Virus record (IMG/VR): IMGVR_UViG_3300037587_000163
Location: 1 to 24,691 of that record
Reading direction: 5' to 3' (one strand)
DNA from: a virus
DNA: 24,691 nt
Positions 566-23,280 of the stretch are shown in pieces. Every line of letters starts with the position of its first letter. Positions within the stretch are counted from its first letter, which is position 1. Below the pieces are notes generated by a model, which was not told the origin of the DNA, ran no database searches, and was given only the letters and a program-made list of their open reading frames with translations. The position numbers were made by a program, and so were the translations under genes.

Positions 566-624
566 CTGTGCTATATTGAACACTCAAAACAAACGTTTAA
601 CGGAAACTTTAAGAGGATATAACA

Positions 625-675
625 ATGACACCGGCGGGTAAATCCGCTAAGCCCATTCTAGAGAGTGGGCACTAA
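625..675 (+). CDS. Short leader ORF (16 aa)
   Basis: ATG at 625 has GAGG at 613-616, 8 bases upstream, a well-spaced ribosome binding site. It encodes MTPAGKSAKPILESGH and stops at TAA 673-675, too short for routine gene calling. Its codons run straight through both 5' hairpins (about 633-646 and 650-669), and its stop lies one base before the 5' strand of the 10-bp long-range helix at 677-686. A translating or stalled ribosome would therefore melt or block these structures, as leader peptides do in attenuation. Similarity to a known leader peptide was not recognised. The match between reading frame and hairpin positions could be coincidence. Confidence 0.45.
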   Translation: MTPAGKSAKPILESGH

Positions 676-838
676 TAAGGGTAATGGGAAGCCGACCTAA
701 TCAACGGCGTAGGTAAGTAGCTTAAGCAGAGTGTGAGACTCTAACGAAGTGAACTGCATAGGCCTAAAGGAACTCACAACCACTGATCATGGCATTACCC
801 TTTTTAGTGCAATTCAAAACAACAACGGAGTAATGGAA

Positions 839-1111
839 ATGTTTAGACTACCAATTAACCTTTACAAGTATGTCCACGAAACCTTTTTGCAATTGTTCAG
901 CCAGCCAGATAACTATATTGCTGAGCCTAATGATACCTTCCGACATCGAGGAGGTTATCGTAAAACCACACATCATACCTGGAATTTTGTTTGCAAAGAT
1001 ATGTCCGGATATGGCATCTTCAAATCTCGACAGACTGGCATTGAGCGCCGGTTTAAAATTGGTGGACTGAACATGAGCCTTCCTGCCAAGCGGCATTTCG
1101 GTTTAGCTTAA
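839..1111 (+). CDS. Hypothetical basic protein (90 aa) inside the structured RNA
   Basis: Unrecognised basic protein beginning MFRLPINLYKYVHETFL, with a mid-section rich in His, Arg and aromatic residues (RHRGGYRKTTHHTWNFVC) and a basic C-terminus ending PAKRHFGLA. The composition would suit an RNA- or DNA-binding protein, but no motif is diagnostic. GGAG at 827-830 lies 8 bases before the ATG at 839, making it the best start; ATG 833 is too close to that site and the open frame extends back to GTG 749 without a good site. The frame lies between the 5' and 3' structured domains, as ORFs often do in mobile or self-structured RNAs. The coding call is moderate because the reverse strand is also open over much of it. 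Confidence 0.5.
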   Translation: MFRLPINLYKYVHETFLQLFSQPDNYIAEPNDTFRHRGGYRKTTHHTWNFVCKDMSGYGIFKSRQTGIERRFKIGGLNMSLPAKRHFGLA

Positions 1112-1186
1112 GAACTGTCAGCGGATATGGACGGCTGTAGTATCCGTACTAATGCAGTACAGCCCGCCTCACTCTCGTAAGGAGTG

Positions 1187-1292
1187 TGCAATTTGAAGGG
1201 TTTTATTGGCGCCATACCTAGGCCTTCGACGTTCAATCTAAAGGCCACAGATGAACGCTTAGGGTGGCGCCAATAGAATCTTTCAAGGTGCA
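1187..1292 (+). repeat. Long inverted repeat: about 28-bp helix capped by an H-type pseudoknot
   Basis: Positions 1187-1214 pair with 1265-1292: 27 of 28 positions pair, with one A-G mismatch (1191/1288). Four pairs are G-U in the plus-strand RNA (1203/1276, 1200/1279, 1198/1281, 1192/1287); on the minus strand they would be A-C mismatches, so the structure is a plus-strand RNA. Inside, CCUA/UAGG (1217-1220 with 1260-1263) extends it. GGCCUU (1221-1226) pairs with AAGGCC (1241-1246), and the loop CGUUCA (1230-1235) pairs with UGAACG (1252-1257), forming a classic H-type pseudoknot. Confidence 0.85.
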
Positions 1293-1325
1293 ATAACGCA
1301 CTAGAGCAAACAAATAAAGGCCATC

Positions 1326-1358
1326 AAAAGCATTCCCTTCTGGTTGGGCGTGCTTTTT
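1326..1358 (+). terminator. Intrinsic terminator of the left structured RNA
   Basis: AAAAGCA (1326-1332) pairs with UGCUUUU (1351-1357), with an inner CCC/GGG (1335-1337 with 1346-1348) and U-run 1354-1358. It lies 26 bases before the ATG of the membrane protein gene, so that gene would need read-through or its own start of transcription. Confidence 0.75.
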
Positions 1359-2092: not shown

Positions 2093-2602
2093 TTACTTAT
2101 CCTTTAGCTTTGAGCCGTGGCTAGATCCGAACCAGAAGTCAGCAATCTTAATTTGCAATGTGGTTAATACTCCGATCAGACCGGAAAGCAATTGACCTTC
2201 ACTACCCGCTGGTATTGTAGCTACATCGAAAATTAAGCAGCCGATTAGCCCAAAATAACCCAGTGTATAAATAACTGATAATGCTATTTGCGGCCACATA
2301 TTAATCTTGAACAATTCACGTGCACTATCTCTATCTGCAATTTCCAGTTCAAACACATCAATATCAAGCTCATTCATTTTAAGCTCAAATTCTTGATCAG
2401 AACGTTTGATATCTGCTAACTGTTCGGGAGACGCGCCCATAATGAGCGATTCTAGCTCTGTGGGACTTGCTCCTGGCTTTCCGAAGATGTTTGCTAATAC
2501 ATTGACCGCTTGACCAGCAACAGGCCCACCAAGGCCAGCAGCGAGCGCAGGGGCGAATTTACGAACTAAGTTAACGGCTGTTTTGCCAAGTTTAAATTTC
2601 AT
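2093..2602 (-). CDS. Holin, three-membrane-segment (GTA/3TM) type
   Basis: The 169-aa protein has a small hydrophobic N-terminal segment (about 16-38, APALAAGLGGPVAGQAVNVL), a long charged helical middle rich in Glu and Asp (about 58-98), and two clear membrane helices at about 103-126 and 134-150, the first starting MWPQIALSVIYTLGYFGL. This matches the phage/GTA 3TM holin family, which permeabilises the inner membrane to release or activate the endolysin. I chose ATG 2602 because it overlaps the endolysin stop as ATGA and has AAGG about 8 bases upstream; a GTG at 2611 would add three residues. The endolysin gene immediately upstream fixes the role. Confidence 0.82.
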   Translation of the reverse strand: MKFKLGKTAVNLVRKFAPALAAGLGGPVAGQAVNVLANIFGKPGASPTELESLIMGASPEQLADIKRSDQEFELKMNELDIDVFELEIADRDSARELFKINMWPQIALSVIYTLGYFGLIGCLIFDVATIPAGSEGQLLSGLIGVLTTLQIKIADFWFGSSHGSKLKDK

Positions 2603-3000
2603 GCTCCCCACCTTGCCTTTATTGATCGTGTGTCTCTATGTGTGAATGTATTGTATAAACCAATGCCACCAAAATCAGGATACTTACTATCGAAATAATC
2701 ATAAACCATTTTAGGAGGTATCTGCTCACCACGCGCAAATATTTTACCGTCGATAGCACAACAGCGGGGATGTTGACTTTCATCATCAGAACCTACATCT
2801 TCAGTCCGGTTATGAACATAACACCTGGCAGCGCTGGTTATCTCAAGACTAACCTTACCAACCTTCCACTTTTGGGCAAAATAATCACAAGCGTCTTGCC
2901 ATTCCTGTATAATTGGTTCGTGAGCCTGAATGCTAACTTCACAGTTTCCGCACTGGCACTTTAGCTCATGCTGACTGATGTTTTTTGTTAAATCGCCCAT
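2599..3000 (-). CDS. Endolysin, peptidase M15 family (zinc D-Ala peptidase type)
   Basis: This 133-aa single-domain protein carries the M15 zinc signature: SAARCYVHN (56-64), then SQHPRCCAID (75-84) giving ligands His77 and Asp84, and GIGLYNTFTHRDTR (112-125) giving His121. The family cleaves peptide bonds in peptidoglycan stems, as L,D- or D,D-peptidases, and serves as phage endolysin. There is no signal peptide, so export depends on the holin downstream, whose start overlaps its stop as ATGA. AGGAG lies 5 bases upstream of the ATG. A CxC-x2-C cluster (15-20) near the N-terminus is seen in some relatives. Length suits stand-alone phage M15 enzymes. Family certain, exact bond cut unknown. Confidence 0.9.
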   Translation of the reverse strand: MGDLTKNISQHELKCQCGNCEVSIQAHEPIIQEWQDACDYFAQKWKVGKVSLEITSAARCYVHNRTEDVGSDDESQHPRCCAIDGKIFARGEQIPPKMVYDYFDSKYPDFGGIGLYNTFTHRDTRSIKARWGA

Positions 3001-3036: not shown

Positions 3037-5001
3037 TCAGTATACATTTAAAATAACATCGTCAACATAAATAGTATTGCCGCCAAACGTATCTATATTG
3101 AACTCTATAATTGCATGTGTGGCCCAAGATGGTGCGCGTTGATTCTGATTATTAGAATTCAGTTTGGTTGCCGTTGTCGCAGTCTGTGAGCCGTGAGTTA
3201 CTATTGTTTGCTCTTTCTTAACATCTAAGTCACCACTGGAATCTAATACAGCTTTCACATATTTGCTTGTAATCCCGCCAACTGTACCGCCGGTGACCTT
3301 GAATTGGAATTCATATTTAAAAGCGTCTGAACCTTCCACTGGTGTAGAGATAACAAATTTTGATGGGTTACCAGTGTGTGTGGCAGCTAGTGATTGAGCG
3401 CCTGTAATTGGAGCTGCTGCGCTTACAGCTAACGTAATATTTGTAGAACCCGTTAATTTAAAAACATCGTCTATAATAGATGCCAATTCAAAGCCACCAT
3501 CAGCCATTCGATTTGATACTTCACCCATAAGATTAGGAGACGTATCAAGTCCGTCGAATGTTCTATTTTTGAATATAATAGAACCGCTATCACCGTTAGC
3601 CATAAAACCTGATGACGTTTCTAGGTTAGCCGTCTGTACGTCATAAAGGGCAATACCCAGTTTTTCAGCAGATGCTGTCCTCGGGCTTACCTCAAAAATA
3701 AACCCAGGGTTTGTGCCAGTACCAGGGTTTACAATCCTGCCGCCATGCATAACAATTAAACCGTTTCGATCACCTACAAAGAATGGTGTTTGCGCCCAAT
3801 TGCCGGAAGGGTGTTCAACATGGCATCCAAACATTTCAATTCTAACACCAGCATCAATATGAAACGGCTTGTTAACTGTGTCATCCAGGCTACACGAATG
3901 CAGATAAATATCTGTTCCACTGCCGGTTGTATAATCAAAAAAGAAATCAAAGTTATTACCATCAAACAACGTACCCCAGAAGGAAATATTTTCACCTGAG
4001 TTTGTCGCTCCATCTGGACGAGTAACCCCGCTTGCACAGTCTCGGATAACCCCCCTGAAAAACTTAATCAAATAGGTATTATCTTGTATATCCATAGCCT
4101 TCAAGAAGGATTCTATGTAAACGTCTTCAAAAAATATCCTATTCGGACCAGCAGGAGCTGCATTGCCATCAAGCCTTAACGCTGACTGAGTCCCCGCCTT
4201 TCCGCTACCAAGTAACTTAATATTTTTAAGAAAAGATAACACCTGTTCTCTTGGGGGGCTTTGCGTTCCAGTCAAATCAAAGGCAAAAGTATCCGCCGAA
4301 CCAGAAAAATCAAATGTGGTTGTGTTACCTATAATCTTTGTCTTTGATACATCGATGGATAATCCATTGGCAAACGTGTGAGCTGCCAAGTCAGTGGCAA
4401 TGATTGTAACTCCTGATCCAGCATCAGCAACTGCTATCATTGCCGCAAATTGCGTATCATCTAAAGTCCCTGTAACTCCATATTGCCTTGCATTAAGTGT
4501 ATTTAATTCAAAATTTTGCAATACAAAAACAAACCCAGATACAGCCGATGTGTGACTTCCAAAGCCGTCACCACTCCCTGCCTGAAATAAGTAATCACCC
4601 TGGCCACCGTCTCCTACTGTTGTATAGCCTTTGGTCTTAATCGCCTTATTTGTCGGGAATACAATTGTACTTGCAACCATAAGAGCCACAGTGCCGAACT
4701 CATACGGTAGAGTTAAATCGTTAAAACCTGCAAATTCATCAACTATTGCGCCGCCAAATATTTGAGAGCCGTTTTTATCTTTCAAGGTAACTTTATATAT
4801 ACCTGATATATAAATATCACCAAACACCCCTGTACTGTCAGAAATAACCGGGTTGGTGTTAGGAGTCGGAGTCGATAGCTGGTCGCTAAAAGTATCTTTA
4901 GGTGTTACGCCATCCAATTCAAAATAGAATAGCTGCGCACCATCACTTGGTTTGATTCCGCTACCAACATTTGCAAAGGGCATGATAAATCTGGATGACA
5001 T
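3037..5001 (-). CDS. Tailspike protein with podoviral head-binding domain
   Basis: 654 aa, close to P22 gp9 (667). Residues 1 to about 95 form a head/tail-binding domain of the type with GAQLFYFELDG and DSTGVFGDIYISGIYKVTLKD, which attaches the spike to the tail hub. From about 100 (SGY-less linker, then KGYTTVGDGGQGDYLF) to about 500 it looks like a right-handed beta-helix with the pectate-lyase-like entry ARQYGVTGTLDDT at about 172-184. The last 150 residues (from about MADGGFELAS) resemble a jelly-roll carbohydrate-binding module ending YVDDVILNVY. It should bind and probably cleave host polysaccharide; catalytic residues cannot be assigned by eye. Placed after gp16, as late as gp9 in P22, but separated from it by a homing endonuclease gene. 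Confidence 0.88.
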   Translation of the reverse strand: MSSRFIMPFANVGSGIKPSDGAQLFYFELDGVTPKDTFSDQLSTPTPNTNPVISDSTGVFGDIYISGIYKVTLKDKNGSQIFGGAIVDEFAGFNDLTLPYEFGTVALMVASTIVFPTNKAIKTKGYTTVGDGGQGDYLFQAGSGDGFGSHTSAVSGFVFVLQNFELNTLNARQYGVTGTLDDTQFAAMIAVADAGSGVTIIATDLAAHTFANGLSIDVSKTKIIGNTTTFDFSGSADTFAFDLTGTQSPPREQVLSFLKNIKLLGSGKAGTQSALRLDGNAAPAGPNRIFFEDVYIESFLKAMDIQDNTYLIKFFRGVIRDCASGVTRPDGATNSGENISFWGTLFDGNNFDFFFDYTTGSGTDIYLHSCSLDDTVNKPFHIDAGVRIEMFGCHVEHPSGNWAQTPFFVGDRNGLIVMHGGRIVNPGTGTNPGFIFEVSPRTASAEKLGIALYDVQTANLETSSGFMANGDSGSIIFKNRTFDGLDTSPNLMGEVSNRMADGGFELASIIDDVFKLTGSTNITLAVSAAAPITGAQSLAATHTGNPSKFVISTPVEGSDAFKYEFQFKVTGGTVGGITSKYVKAVLDSSGDLDVKKEQTIVTHGSQTATTATKLNSNNQNQRAPSWATHAIIEFNIDTFGGNTIYVDDVILNVY

Positions 5002-5054: not shown

Positions 5055-5135
5055 GCGGATAAGGGGCACCTGAAAACCGATTTGTCATCGGCTTCCGCTA
5101 TCAATTTTAGACACCTTGACAGAGGATTATCAGAA

Positions 5136-5642
5136 ATGCTTACAACTAAAAACCTGAAAGAATTCACCTTATATAACCCTGAAACTGGATCTTTTTCTTG
5201 GTCTAAAATAGACACTCCGAACCAAACAAAAGTCGGAGATGAAATAGGTTCTATAAAAGAGACTCATGGCATTCATTACAAGCAAACCAGTTTTAATGGT
5301 AGTTATTTTGTTATTCATAGAATTATACACCTATACATGACTGGGAATTGGCCCGAATGCCAAATAGACCATATAGATGGCAACGGATTAAATAATAAGT
5401 GGTCGAACTTAAGAGCTGTAGACCACCAAACAAATATGATGAACAAAAAGAAATACAGCTCAAACTCATCCGGGCTATCTGGAGTGACGCTCCGTAAGTG
5501 CGACAAAAAATGGTACGCAAGAATAAGCAAAGACGGTGATAGATTTTTTCTTGGTGCGTTTGATTCATTCTTTGAAGCTTGCTGCGCCAGAATTTCAGCT
5601 CAAAATTCCATTGGGTATCATGCAAACCATGGAAGAGAGTAA
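5136..5642 (+). CDS. Free-standing HNH homing endonuclease with AP2 DNA-binding domain
   Basis: The 168-aa protein has an HNH_3-type nuclease core around 58-96: FVIHRIIHLYMTG, then CQIDHIDGNGLNNKWSNLR with the IDH and N..NLR residues of the beta-beta-alpha metal site. An AP2-type DNA-binding domain follows at about 113-165, with SGVTLRKCDKKWYARI and GAFDSFFEACCAR. I start at ATG 5136 because GAGGA lies 8-9 bases upstream; the open frame reaches back to 5082 without a site. Such enzymes cut phage genomes lacking the gene and spread by repair. It is the only plus-strand gene inside the late operon, its stop lies 5 bases from the gp16 stop, and it separates gp16 from the tailspike, so it is an inserted selfish gene. 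Confidence 0.88.
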   Translation: MLTTKNLKEFTLYNPETGSFSWSKIDTPNQTKVGDEIGSIKETHGIHYKQTSFNGSYFVIHRIIHLYMTGNWPECQIDHIDGNGLNNKWSNLRAVDHQTNMMNKKKYSSNSSGLSGVTLRKCDKKWYARISKDGDRFFLGAFDSFFEACCARISAQNSIGYHANHGRE

Positions 5643-10259: not shown

Positions 10260-10604
10260 TTAGGATATAACCTCTGTCACTGTTAGTTTCCCGTTCACGC
10301 TATCGTTAGCCGATACTTTTGCCTGAAGTACACCGCCGAATATTATTGCTTGTCCGATCAAACCAGGTGCAAGGAAGTTATCTTTGGATCTAATTGTCTT
10401 CTCAGTTGTAACTTCGTCAAAAAGATCCGTTGTATCAGTTTGCGATAACCGGATAGATATAGTTACGTTACTTCCTGAATAATTGTTAAACACAATGGCA
10501 TCTATGCCACCTCTATTAACTCCAGAATTTGGCGTGTAAATAGTCGTGTATGAGGTCGTTAAATCAAACCCTGTGCCAATTGGTGTTAATGGATTACTGG
10601 CCAT
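10260..10604 (-). CDS. Small beta-rich virion protein, unassigned (114 aa)
   Basis: The sequence is strand-rich, with alternating hydrophobic and Thr/Ser residues (FDLTTSYTTIYTPNSG, GSNVTISIRLSQTDTTDL, GGVLQAKVSANDSVNGKLTVT). It looks like a small beta-sandwich of the kind used in tail or head accessory proteins. I do not recognise a named family. The ATG overlaps the stop of the 277-aa gene (TAATG), so the pair is coupled and probably works together in the virion. It occupies part of the place of P22 genes 26 and 14. There are no membrane segments or cysteines. Structural role inferred from context. Confidence 0.65.
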   Translation of the reverse strand: MASNPLTPIGTGFDLTTSYTTIYTPNSGVNRGGIDAIVFNNYSGSNVTISIRLSQTDTTDLFDEVTTEKTIRSKDNFLAPGLIGQAIIFGGVLQAKVSANDSVNGKLTVTEVIS

Positions 10605-11437
10605 TATTCTTGTAACTCCGAGCCTTGAGCAACCCAGTGCATTCTGGTTAGCCCAGTTAAATCATCTTGCACAATCATTTCCAGCTGCTCTCCTGTTCCC
10701 ACGCTGCCGTCCAGCCTTATTGCGACACCATGTTTTGATTGTCCTGCAAATGTTATTCTGGCTGTGAACCCTCGCACACCGCCACCGTTATTTATAGCGA
10801 AATCATGGTCAAAACTCATTAAAATAATATCGCCATTAGATTTAAAATTATATACATTTCGGAAAGTTCCATCTCCATTATTAACTCTAATAACTAACCC
10901 GTTTAATAGGGCAGTTAAGGCACCGAATGTCTCGAAATCCATTGCAGAGTTATCTCTAATTTCACAGATTATTCTAGTTACATCTCCCGATTGAACTGGA
11001 GTGGGTTTAATAGTGAATATTTGTGGTGTTGATGAGCCGTCAACATTCATACCTTTAATGCTGTGCTGTACAATAGAATCGGATGTTGTATATATCCTAT
11101 TAACAGGACAGTCTAATAAAACAACATCACCTGTAACCGTTACAATCTCGCATTGAGTGAAAAAAGACCCATTTGTGTTGTTTGCTAACTCAATTACGTC
11201 ACCTGCGTTTGTACCTGTCGTAAGCCCATGCCCTGCCGTTAAAGTGATATTTCTTGAGCCGATGACAGTATTGACCGCCAAAGTAATTGAATTGCCTTCC
11301 TGCAAAAAAGGCAGGTCTAAAACGCCTGTTGTTTGATCTTGAATAAACACAGGAATACCAGTGCCGCCCCTCGCTGTTGTTTCAAGAGGGCTTATTATTG
11401 ATACGGGTAGCGGATCTGGTAATACATTATTAGCCAT
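10604..11437 (-). CDS. Conserved phage virion-type protein, unassigned (277 aa)
   Basis: Beta-rich throughout, with no membrane segment or catalytic motif. The C-terminal third (RITFAGQSKHGVAIRLDGS, then EMIVQDDLTGLTRMHWVAQG) is a pattern I recall from conserved structural-region proteins in several unrelated tailed phages; no function is known to me. The middle (DVIELANNTNGSFFTQCEIV) suggests a repeat-like beta domain that may mediate oligomerisation. ATG follows the preceding stop directly, and its own stop overlaps the next start. A tail-hub or adhesin accessory is the most likely role from position between gp10 and the ejection genes. Confidence that it is a real gene is high; assignment is low. 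Confidence 0.7.
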   Translation of the reverse strand: MANNVLPDPLPVSIISPLETTARGGTGIPVFIQDQTTGVLDLPFLQEGNSITLAVNTVIGSRNITLTAGHGLTTGTNAGDVIELANNTNGSFFTQCEIVTVTGDVVLLDCPVNRIYTTSDSIVQHSIKGMNVDGSSTPQIFTIKPTPVQSGDVTRIICEIRDNSAMDFETFGALTALLNGLVIRVNNGDGTFRNVYNFKSNGDIILMSFDHDFAINNGGGVRGFTARITFAGQSKHGVAIRLDGSVGTGEQLEMIVQDDLTGLTRMHWVAQGSELQE

Positions 11438-21702: not shown

Positions 21703-21959
21703 TCTGCTCTAACTTGAATTAAATCCCCATTTCTACCAACAAATCCAGTCTTTGGAATTGGTGTATTAAGCATGTCGTGAACCCATGCTTCACCTAATGA
21801 GGTGGTTTTATATTCATTCCGGCTTGTGAGATTATCTTCAATTACTCCTGCCTCTATCCACCGGTCACAAGTGGCCCGATATAACTCAGTGCCGTTTTGT
21901 TCAAAGTCACAAGCCATTACATAAAAATGGATTAATAATGTTGCTTCATATGGTGTCAT
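21699..21959 (-). CDS. Small winged-helix-like phage protein (86 aa)
   Basis: The sequence MTPYEATLLIHFYVMACDFE, then LYRATCDRWIEAGVIEDN, then RNEYKTTSLGEAWVHDMLNTPIP has the layout of a compact winged-helix fold: helix, helix with a recognition-like WIEAGVI, and a hairpin wing ending in TT.LGEAWV. I recall similar small proteins in many phages with unknown function, beginning MTPYEA and ending in a GEAWV..L.TP.P motif. ATG 21959 is chosen because GGAG lies 8 bases upstream, within the end of the preceding gene. The longer open frame to 22118 overlaps that gene and has no site. DNA binding is possible but not shown. Confidence 0.72.
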   Translation of the reverse strand: MTPYEATLLIHFYVMACDFEQNGTELYRATCDRWIEAGVIEDNLTSRNEYKTTSLGEAWVHDMLNTPIPKTGFVGRNGDLIQVRAE

Positions 21960-21963
21960 GCTT

Positions 21964-22149
21964 TCAGCTCCAGCTTGATAAGTAATTTGACACAGCCACA
22001 GACGTTGGTAGCGGCTTTCGGAAGAAACATGCACGAAACACCTGATTAGTGTTAATCGCCTCTCTGTAAGCCTGTACGCCCCTGTAAAATGCGCCTGAAA
22101 CCATCTTTCTATATTCACCGTATGCTTTTTTGAATTCTTGCTTCTTCAT
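21964..22149 (-). CDS. Small basic hypothetical protein (61 aa)
   Basis: The 61-aa product begins MKKQEFKKAYGEYRKMVSGA, is basic, with several aromatic residues and a single short hydrophobic patch (VFRACFF), and ends VAVSNYLSSWS. I do not recognise it. AGGAG lies 8 bases before the ATG, a strong site, which makes this frame the real one over the overlapping frame read in the same strand. Its last codons contain the GGAG ribosome binding site of the next gene, so both are co-translated. Possibly a small regulator or host-interaction protein; no evidence beyond size and place. Confidence 0.6.
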   Translation of the reverse strand: MKKQEFKKAYGEYRKMVSGAFYRGVQAYREAINTNQVFRACFFRKPLPTSVAVSNYLSSWS

Positions 22150-22196
22150 TTCATATACTCCTATCTTGCTTACTCGGTGCCAATAATTATGCCAAT

Positions 22197-22222
22197 TTAG
22201 CGCACTGGTTAGAATGCGCTAA
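22197..22222. repeat. Perfect 8-bp inverted repeat upstream of the 61-aa gene
   Basis: TTAGCGCA (22197-22204) and TGCGCTAA (22215-22222) flank a 10-base loop between the 40-aa and 61-aa genes. There is no U-run on either strand, so an operator or an mRNA-processing hairpin fits better than a terminator. Confidence 0.6.
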
Positions 22223-22231
22223 CGTGATTAA

Positions 22232-22354
22232 CTACTGAGAACGTCTTGCTCTGTCTCTTGCTGTTTTGCCCGGGCGTGCCACCTTGAACAAATCCAGACA
22301 GTTACGGTGCGTTGTAGGTAAATCACCTAATGTTTCGCGTTGCTGCTTAGTCAT
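22232..22354 (-). CDS. Small very basic phage protein (40 aa)
   Basis: Minus-strand ORF of 40 codons: MTKQQRETLGDLPTTHRNCL continuing to a C-terminus of ARPGKTARDRARRSQ. The tail is strongly basic and the ARPGKTARDRA pattern looks like genuine protein sequence of the kind seen in small phage proteins. Its ATG overlaps the stop of a 22-aa ORF as ATGA, so it is probably reached by termination-reinitiation; no independent Shine-Dalgarno site is visible. It fills an otherwise empty gap between the YopX-like gene and the 61-aa gene. Function unknown; an RNA- or DNA-binding role is possible from charge. Confidence 0.55.
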   Translation of the reverse strand: MTKQQRETLGDLPTTHRNCLDLFKVARPGKTARDRARRSQ

Positions 22355-22438: not shown

Positions 22439-22798
22439 TTATTGATCTGTGTCAGTTTTTATCAACTCTGGATTTTCGTAGATGTTACCGACAACCTTGT
22501 AATTAAGTAAATCTAAATCATCCTGTGAAATAATTGGATTAGGTAGAGTCTCATCCCAATCTACATATAACGCTCTAAATGATCCGTCATTGAATGTAAC
22601 AGAATAAGGGCATGATTCATTTGGAAATCTAGTGTGGTCTAATATGTCGCCTTCATAGACTTCTTTGCCGTCCCAGTCGCGCAGGCCAGTGTATTGATTA
22701 AGCTCCTTGAATGATCCACACCTGTGAATATCCACTTTTGAATAATCCATAAAATAGAATTCAATCCCGTCCCAAGCTCTAAATTTTATATCTCTCAT
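22439..22798 (-). CDS. YopX-family phage protein (119 aa)
   Basis: The product opens MRDIKFRAWDGIEFYFMDY, and in the middle has QYTGLRDWDGKEVYEGDILD, the hallmark of the YopX family (MR.IKFRAWD and QYTGLKD.NGKEIYEGDI). The C-terminus closes the fold with YKVVGNIYENPEL, also typical. The family is common in phages of Gram-positive and Gram-negative bacteria; its fold includes an SH3-like barrel, and its function is not known. I choose ATG 22798 with GGAG 6 bases upstream; a TTG at 22810 would add four residues. It lies below an RNA-rich gap. Confidence 0.9.
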   Translation of the reverse strand: MRDIKFRAWDGIEFYFMDYSKVDIHRCGSFKELNQYTGLRDWDGKEVYEGDILDHTRFPNESCPYSVTFNDGSFRALYVDWDETLPNPIISQDDLDLLNYKVVGNIYENPELIKTDTDQ

Positions 22799-22810
22799 AA
22801 CTTTCTCCAA

Positions 22811-23101
22811 AGTATAGTTATCAATTAAGAGCGATCTTGCAAGGATGGGGTTTACCTTACAATACTCTTATGGCTTACATGCAATCAAAACAGTATCAGT
22901 GTCCTATTTACGTCCTTGTTGGGAGATCAACCCATATACCCTGCATTACCACTGTTTGTCCGCGCTCTTAAACGTTGTTTGATTGTAGGTGTTACATAAT
23001 TACTAAGTTTAAAGCCAATTAGTTTTGGCATCAGGCTATTGCGTTTTGGAGTGTCAGCAGCCAGGTAATGAACTCTGGCTTGAGGTAGAAATGAAAGGCA
23101 T
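22811..23101. other. Gap with local hairpins, no convincing gene
   Basis: No ORF with a good start is seen over these 290 bases. Local dyads include AGCCAG/CTGGCT (23059-23064 with 23075-23080), GCCAA/TTGGC (23014-23018 with 23025-23029), and GTTG/CAAC near 22920. A minus-strand frame of 34 codons from 23031 (MPKLIGFKLS...) has no Shine-Dalgarno site and I leave it uncalled. The stretch could be the leader of the YopX-like gene. Confidence 0.4.
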
Positions 23102-23247
23102 AAAAAAAGGCTTAAGAAATACAAAGCCCAGTTGGTAAAGGCAGTTCAGGGGATAGTTGAGTTTTAACCCATTGGCCTCTGAACTTTGTATTACTTAAAC
23201 CCTTTACAACTATCTTTAAACTTTTTTAAGGCCTACCACAAGCCTGA
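23102..23247 (-). ncRNA. Candidate pseudoknotted small RNA (about 146 nt)
   Basis: On the minus strand a transcript from about 23247 would end at seven U (23102-23108). Its closing stem pairs 23183-23201 with 23109-23126 (16 of 18 positions; AATACAAAG with CTTTGTATT at the core). An inner stem pairs AGTTCAGAGG (23176-23185) with CCCCTGAACT (23143-23152). The upstream segment GATAGTTGTAAAGG (23201-23214) can pair either with the hairpin loop CAACTATC (23152-23159), making a pseudoknot, or with CCTTTACCAAC (23131-23141) in the bulge, so two states compete. No ORF of note lies in it. It could be a regulatory RNA or a long terminator-attenuator of the upstream operon. Confidence 0.5.
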
Positions 23248-23253
23248 AGTTAA

Positions 23254-23280
23254 TTATAACTAACTCTCATTATTATTCAA
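23254..23280 (-). promoter_or_regulatory. Candidate promoter for the right structured RNA
   Basis: On the minus strand TATAAT (23254-23259) is a perfect -10, with TTGAAT (23275-23280, 4 of 6) upstream. The spacer is only 15 bases, which is suboptimal. It lies just past the stop of the 72-aa gene. Confidence 0.42.

Follow-up and report, generated by a model that had tools for sequence, protein, structure and literature searches.

Positions 572–1358 of a marine phage contig raise the question of whether their product is an RNA or a protein. The window, by which we mean the whole stretch of DNA analysed, is a single IMG/VR virus contig of 24,691 bases and represents a phage fragment. It carries a P22-like packaging gene of the gp3 family, a minus-strand module for the portal and head, and an endolysin gene near 2600–3000, and its terminase has relatives in IMG/VR contigs and in beta- and gammaproteobacterial genomes. 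The few plus-strand genes at 1–1774 face the lysis genes. Two complete open frames flank 572–1358: a gene at 301–540 and, at 1385–1774 on the plus strand, a gene for a membrane-type protein of 129 aa assigned by a family match to phrog_3054. The family phrog_3054 is spread over phages of Vibrio, Salmonella, Escherichia, and Klebsiella, among others, and within the left early operon its members frequently lie close to N. The gene at 301–540 has a relative at the same position in Psychrobacter phage vB_PmaS_Y8A, where it lies among the genes that end the early operon and faces a muramidase gene. Therefore, 572–1358 is placed at the distal end of an early operon, a position that commonly takes up accessory genes in phage genomes. 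Elsewhere in the window, a free-standing HNH endonuclease with an AP2-like part (5082–5639, plus strand) lies on the strand opposite to the surrounding late genes.

The stretch is framed by two signals. An extended −10 promoter-like site, TGCTATATT, can be read at 569–577 on the plus strand, and the RNA start expected from it is near 584. The earlier note had also described a promoter-like site here, but the site is weak, because it has no good −35 element, and a consensus promoter scan lists no plus-strand promoter at 569–577. At the other end, a hairpin (1326–1337/1346–1357) and a T run form a structure resembling an intrinsic terminator (1326–1358, plus strand) in the fold, although a strict consensus scan omits it. 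One plus-strand transcription unit of approximately 775 nt would thus extend from near 584 to 1358, with the RNA itself as the putative product. Two hairpins noticed previously near the 5′ end were reproduced in the minimum free energy folds of the plus strand, one at 633–648 (633–637/644–648, GGCGG / CCGCT) and the other at 651–670 (651–658/663–670, GCCCATTC / GAGTGGGC). The leader also contains a 16-codon frame that had been overlooked, MTPAGKSAKPILESGH (625–675, plus strand), which is preceded by AAGAGG, a good Shine-Dalgarno sequence. This frame could encode a leader peptide or could have arisen by chance.

Downstream of the short hairpin leader, the predicted fold consists of three domains in succession. 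A helix of 18–29 positions closes each of them, and domains 1 and 3 probably contain pseudoknots. When all 24.7 kb of the plus strand were scanned for ungapped helices with a span of up to 240 nt, only three long helices reached the cut-off, and all of them lie inside 572–1358, end to end. The P values given below were obtained by shuffling the 787-nt stretch 1,000 times at the dinucleotide level. Domain 1 (669–810, plus strand; z = −3.2) is closed by the helix 669–686/793–810 (score 37), in which 17 of the 18 positions are paired, and a helix as good as this with a span of at most 145 has P = 0.002 in the shuffles. The 10-bp long-range helix described earlier corresponds to its inner part (677–686/793–802) and extends outward to the full length. 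An inner H-type pseudoknot is possible in this domain, formed by 691–694/705–708 with 695–699/710–714. A loop part of domain 1 contains the palindrome TAGGCCTA (759–766); self-complementary RNA loops can form dimers, and dimerisation of this RNA through the palindrome is a speculative possibility.

Domain 2 (839–1074, plus strand; z = −3.0) holds most of an open frame of 90 aa. Its closing helix, 839–856/1057–1074 (score 33), had been overlooked and is marginal when taken alone (P = 0.045). Domain 3 (1187–1292, plus strand) consists of the long helix 1187–1215/1264–1292, which has the score of 57 and includes 24 unbroken pairs at 1192–1215/1264–1287 when G-U pairs are counted. The helix of 28 positions reported previously (1187–1214/1265–1292) agrees well with this domain, with P < 0.001 in the shuffles and z = −7.5 for the local fold. 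The pseudoknot proposed at its tip is possible, as 1221–1226/1241–1246 with 1231–1235/1252–1256. The domain 3 helix scores 57 on the plus strand versus 36 on the minus strand, and the domain 2 helix, by virtue of its G-U pairs, attains the cut-off on the plus strand but not on the minus strand. This plus-strand advantage, gained through G-U pairs, fits selection acting on a plus-strand RNA. The whole stretch folds at z = −5.2 (20 shuffles), and the segment 580–1180, which leaves out domain 3, at z of only −2.2. The structure of 572–1358 is therefore beyond chance and clustered. On the minus strand of the window, a strong helix (score 43) is located at 3286–3504, within the tail-spike gene.

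The distribution of structure along the stretch also bears on whether the domains belong together. The linker between domains 2 and 3 (1075–1186) shows no structure beyond chance (z = 0.1), pairing across domains within 572–1358 does not exceed chance, and domain 1 reaches significance by itself, as does domain 3. These properties would suit a mosaic without a common product, in which domain 1 is a cis element behind a promoter, for example for pausing or antitermination, and domain 3 is an unrelated, stable hairpin with a terminator that stops early transcription ahead of the lysis genes. However, three closing helices in a row on the same strand, all that the contig has, exceed what two such elements need, and we regard the mosaic as rather improbable.

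The open frame of 90 aa (839–1111, plus strand) was taken from the list of open reading frames, and the earlier note had described it as an embedded frame with its own ribosome binding site. The frame and a good Shine-Dalgarno sequence do exist, but its status as a gene is doubtful. Its codon score is −0.13 per codon, off the codon bias of the phage, whose genes reach up to +0.28; this value resembles that of the antisense frame and lies below those of most accepted genes in the contig. An ATG frame of at least 90 codons arises in 4% of the shuffles, so its length is within chance. The protein has no relative in IMG/VR, GTDB genomes, phages, plasmids, PHROGs, Pfam, NCBIfam, PADLOC, or PDB, and single-sequence AlphaFold2 gave a poor model (pLDDT 45) consisting of one helix and five strands. 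Because of this codon score, the shuffle frequency, the lack of relatives, and the poor model, we consider the frame more likely to be part of an RNA domain than a gene. An analogue of lambda N was also considered for this frame and was rejected in view of its distal place in the early operon, as judged by comparison with Y8A, and its start, which is not rich in arginine.

The ATG of the frame coincides exactly with the start of the domain 2 closing helix, and this arrangement would suit a message. In such a message, a leader peptide would be made at 625, domain 1 would be regulatory, the helix 839–856/1057–1074 would hide the start of the 90-aa frame, and domain 3 with the terminator would form a protective 3′ end. 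The good Shine-Dalgarno sequences before both frames (625 and 839) and the helix and five strands of the low-confidence protein model agree with this explanation, and short orphan genes are common at such a genome position. The unfitting codon use, a frame length within 4% of chance, the failure of every search to find a relative of the 90-aa protein, and the poor model confidence oppose it. On balance, we consider a message unlikely, though with a substantial share of the probability.

If 572–1358 is a noncoding RNA, the question is whether it belongs to a known family. Rfam 15 gave no match in the window at the gathering thresholds, and up to E = 5 it gave only three spurious eukaryotic matches; the earlier statement that the stretch is tied to neither GOLLD nor ROOL nor an intron thus stands. 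The Rfam models detected no catalytic core of a group I or group II intron. GOLLD is characterised by a homo-oligomeric RNA cage, and genes for tRNAs beside it or in its linker are a frequent but not universal feature. ARAGORN detected no tRNA in the window, and 572–1358 has no tRNA nearby and no covariance-model match to GOLLD at any threshold used. It resembles GOLLD in being phage-borne, approximately 800 nt long, and composed of several domains with pseudoknots and no protein product, as predicted here from sequence. The structure of GOLLD was determined by cryo-EM, and tRNAs are sometimes found in its linker (PMC12286853). ROOL is likewise a large RNA of phages and prophages with pseudoknots and a variable linker (PMC12286853), but 572–1358 has no match to its covariance model either, and its sequence and domain order are unrelated to ROOL as far as could be tested.

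Other known systems were compared in the same way. The HK022 put and lambda N-leader RNAs are structured RNAs on an early phage transcript (PMC9378689), and the gene downstream of 572–1358 belongs to phrog_3054, which is seen near N in lambdoid phages. In contrast to these RNAs, 572–1358 is far larger, lies distally in the early operon, and is followed by a terminator, and neither boxA/boxB nor a put signature was identified in it. A type III toxin-antitoxin RNA of the ToxI kind was rejected: 540–1400 contains no tandem pseudoknot repeats, or any other tandem repeat family, and PADLOC found nothing for 1385–1774.

Searches for relatives were equally negative. Searches with blastn using 540–1390 or 560–1370 against phages, plasmids, and E. 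coli gave nothing beyond chance. DNA matches in related viral contigs and in 369 class-level and 299 family-level gammaproteobacterial genomes were no longer than approximately 50 nt, and the best of these, upon inspection, were in ordinary genes or uninformative. Four exact-pattern scans of IMG/VR gave chance matches only. IMG/VR was covered by short exact words and close-protein patterns, and "no relative" here denotes none that the searches described could reach. The domain 1 model matched itself alone, with the next match at the chance level (E = 0.13). A resemblance of the terminator to Psychrobacter genomes was dropped because it sits at a gene start. The RNA of 572–1358 is thus an orphan within the collections searched, and the suggestion that it is possibly mobile found no backing, as neither a second copy nor an empty site nor relatives were found. 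The absence of a homologue anywhere searched would also be expected if the stretch were a non-functional or decayed insert that folds by chance. The shuffle statistics, the clustering, and the framing signals in the right places make this explanation barely credible.

Related phages do carry another large structured RNA. Gene-free gaps were inspected in contigs with terminases related to that of the window, and in one of them (G004) a 540-nt gap folds at z = −4.6. At the DNA level, this gap resembles an unannotated region of Vibrio phage NF (21723–22268), which in turn led to 31 records of Vibrio and Pseudoalteromonas phages. Eleven loci of this family were tested against Rfam up to E = 0.5 without a match. 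In its constant layout, the 5′ module consists of a promoter, the P1 hairpin, a strand "a", a long helix, and a T run, and the tip of the long helix pairs with both the P1 loop and strand "a"; we therefore refer to the family as the marine double-pseudoknot RNA. Pairs in which both sides have changed are more numerous in the alignment than in any of the 500 shuffles or any slid register. The pseudoknot strands, which were picked by eye with identical picks in the control, fit their own partners far better than they fit the partner strands in other members (for each pseudoknot, 0 of 20,000 permutations). A tRNA-Trp gene lies between the 5′ module and the 3′ domain in contig L015 (3606–3815), and three tRNA genes (Pro, Leu, and Leu) occupy the same place in contig G009 (L103, 15373–15751). 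These tRNAs recall the linker tRNAs of GOLLD (PMC12286853). Phage NF has a second copy (NC_070773.1, 10686–10824, minus strand) in a 610-nt unannotated gap (10261–10872, minus strand), whose linker ends with the T-arm-like GGTTCGATTCC and a closing stem and may be a tRNA-like domain. The family is apparently widespread, absent from Rfam, and undescribed.

The window itself contains a member of this family at 22795–23262 on the minus strand, upstream of the small terminase gene. Its 5′ module (23245–23095) is matched by the covariance model R1 (25.2 bits, E = 0.0013) and is followed by a linker and a 3′ domain with matches in Pseudoalteromonas phage BS5 and contig G010. The pseudoknot strands of this member pair with each other. 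Relatives of this member are found in Vibrio phages NF, 1.275.O, 1.122.A, and 1.054.O and in Pseudoalteromonas phages HS5 and BS5. The family loci (NF 21723–22268, L015, G004, G009, and 22795–23262 minus) share with 572–1358 the nature of a large structured intergenic RNA in the same phage lineage. The order of promoter, hairpins, and long helix with a T run is also the same, although the promoter is strong in the family and weak in 572–1358. Because more than one member can occur in a genome, as in phage NF, 572–1358 might be a far diverged member. However, with filters off, R1 gave at most 7.5 bits in or near 572–1358, nhmmer found no sequence link between the two, and pairing of the leader with the domain 1 loop does not exceed chance, so that both family pseudoknots are absent. 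Common descent with the family is therefore disfavoured and, in our estimate, very unlikely.

The three clustered helices, the z-scores, the strand bias, the un-gene-like frame of 90 aa, and the similar RNAs in related phages led us to prefer a noncoding RNA as the explanation of 572–1358. We place at about even the chance that it is a large noncoding RNA of the phage, equipped with its own signals and situated where an early operon ends, similar in kind to GOLLD and ROOL but a member of neither. Possible ribosome-binding sites before the frames at 625 and 839 are unusual for a pure noncoding RNA and argue against this reading, as do the lack of homologues, the marginal domain 2, the unstructured linker at 1075–1186, and the weak promoter. 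Because the RNA is an orphan, this reading is drawn from single-sequence statistics, strand bias, clustering, and context. The helices, their clustering, the framing signals in the sequence, and the absence of relatives are observations, from which we infer a single transcript, its noncoding status, and any role in trans. The unit would lie between the last genes of an early leftward-type operon and the small membrane-protein gene, facing the lysis genes, and would give a stable structural RNA acting in trans, as is thought for RNAs of the GOLLD and ROOL types, rather than a message. The related-terminase phages (L015, G004, and G009) and the window carry other large structured RNAs outside Rfam, and Vibrio phage NF has two in one genome. 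Tentatively, and with somewhat less than even confidence, 572–1358 may be the first example seen of its own class of large noncoding RNA in phages, beside another undescribed class, with several such RNAs per genome in this marine phage group.

To our knowledge, large ornate phage RNAs such as GOLLD and ROOL are few. The double-pseudoknot family adds a robust non-Rfam family with covarying pseudoknots in cultured phages (Vibrio phage NF and Pseudoalteromonas phages HS5 and BS5). Since it occurs in cultured phages, and related metagenomic contigs have tRNA genes between its halves, tests by deletion, expression, and structure determination are directly possible. The orphan RNA at 572–1358 suggests a fast turnover of such RNAs, with further classes awaiting description.

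Within the double-pseudoknot family, four Vibrio phage loci (L140, L141, L147, and L149, from phages 1.122.A, 1.275.O, jenny 12G5, and 1.135.O, respectively) have near-alike 3′ domains and differing 5′ modules, a pattern that looks like cassette exchange of the latter. More long-helix elements were observed in contig G009 at 29613–29791 and 37942–38066 and in the 3′ parts of the G004, L015, and G009 loci. One helix, CTGTAT..ATGAGT.AGTTAG / CTA.CTCAT..ATACAG, repeats at four places in three contigs.
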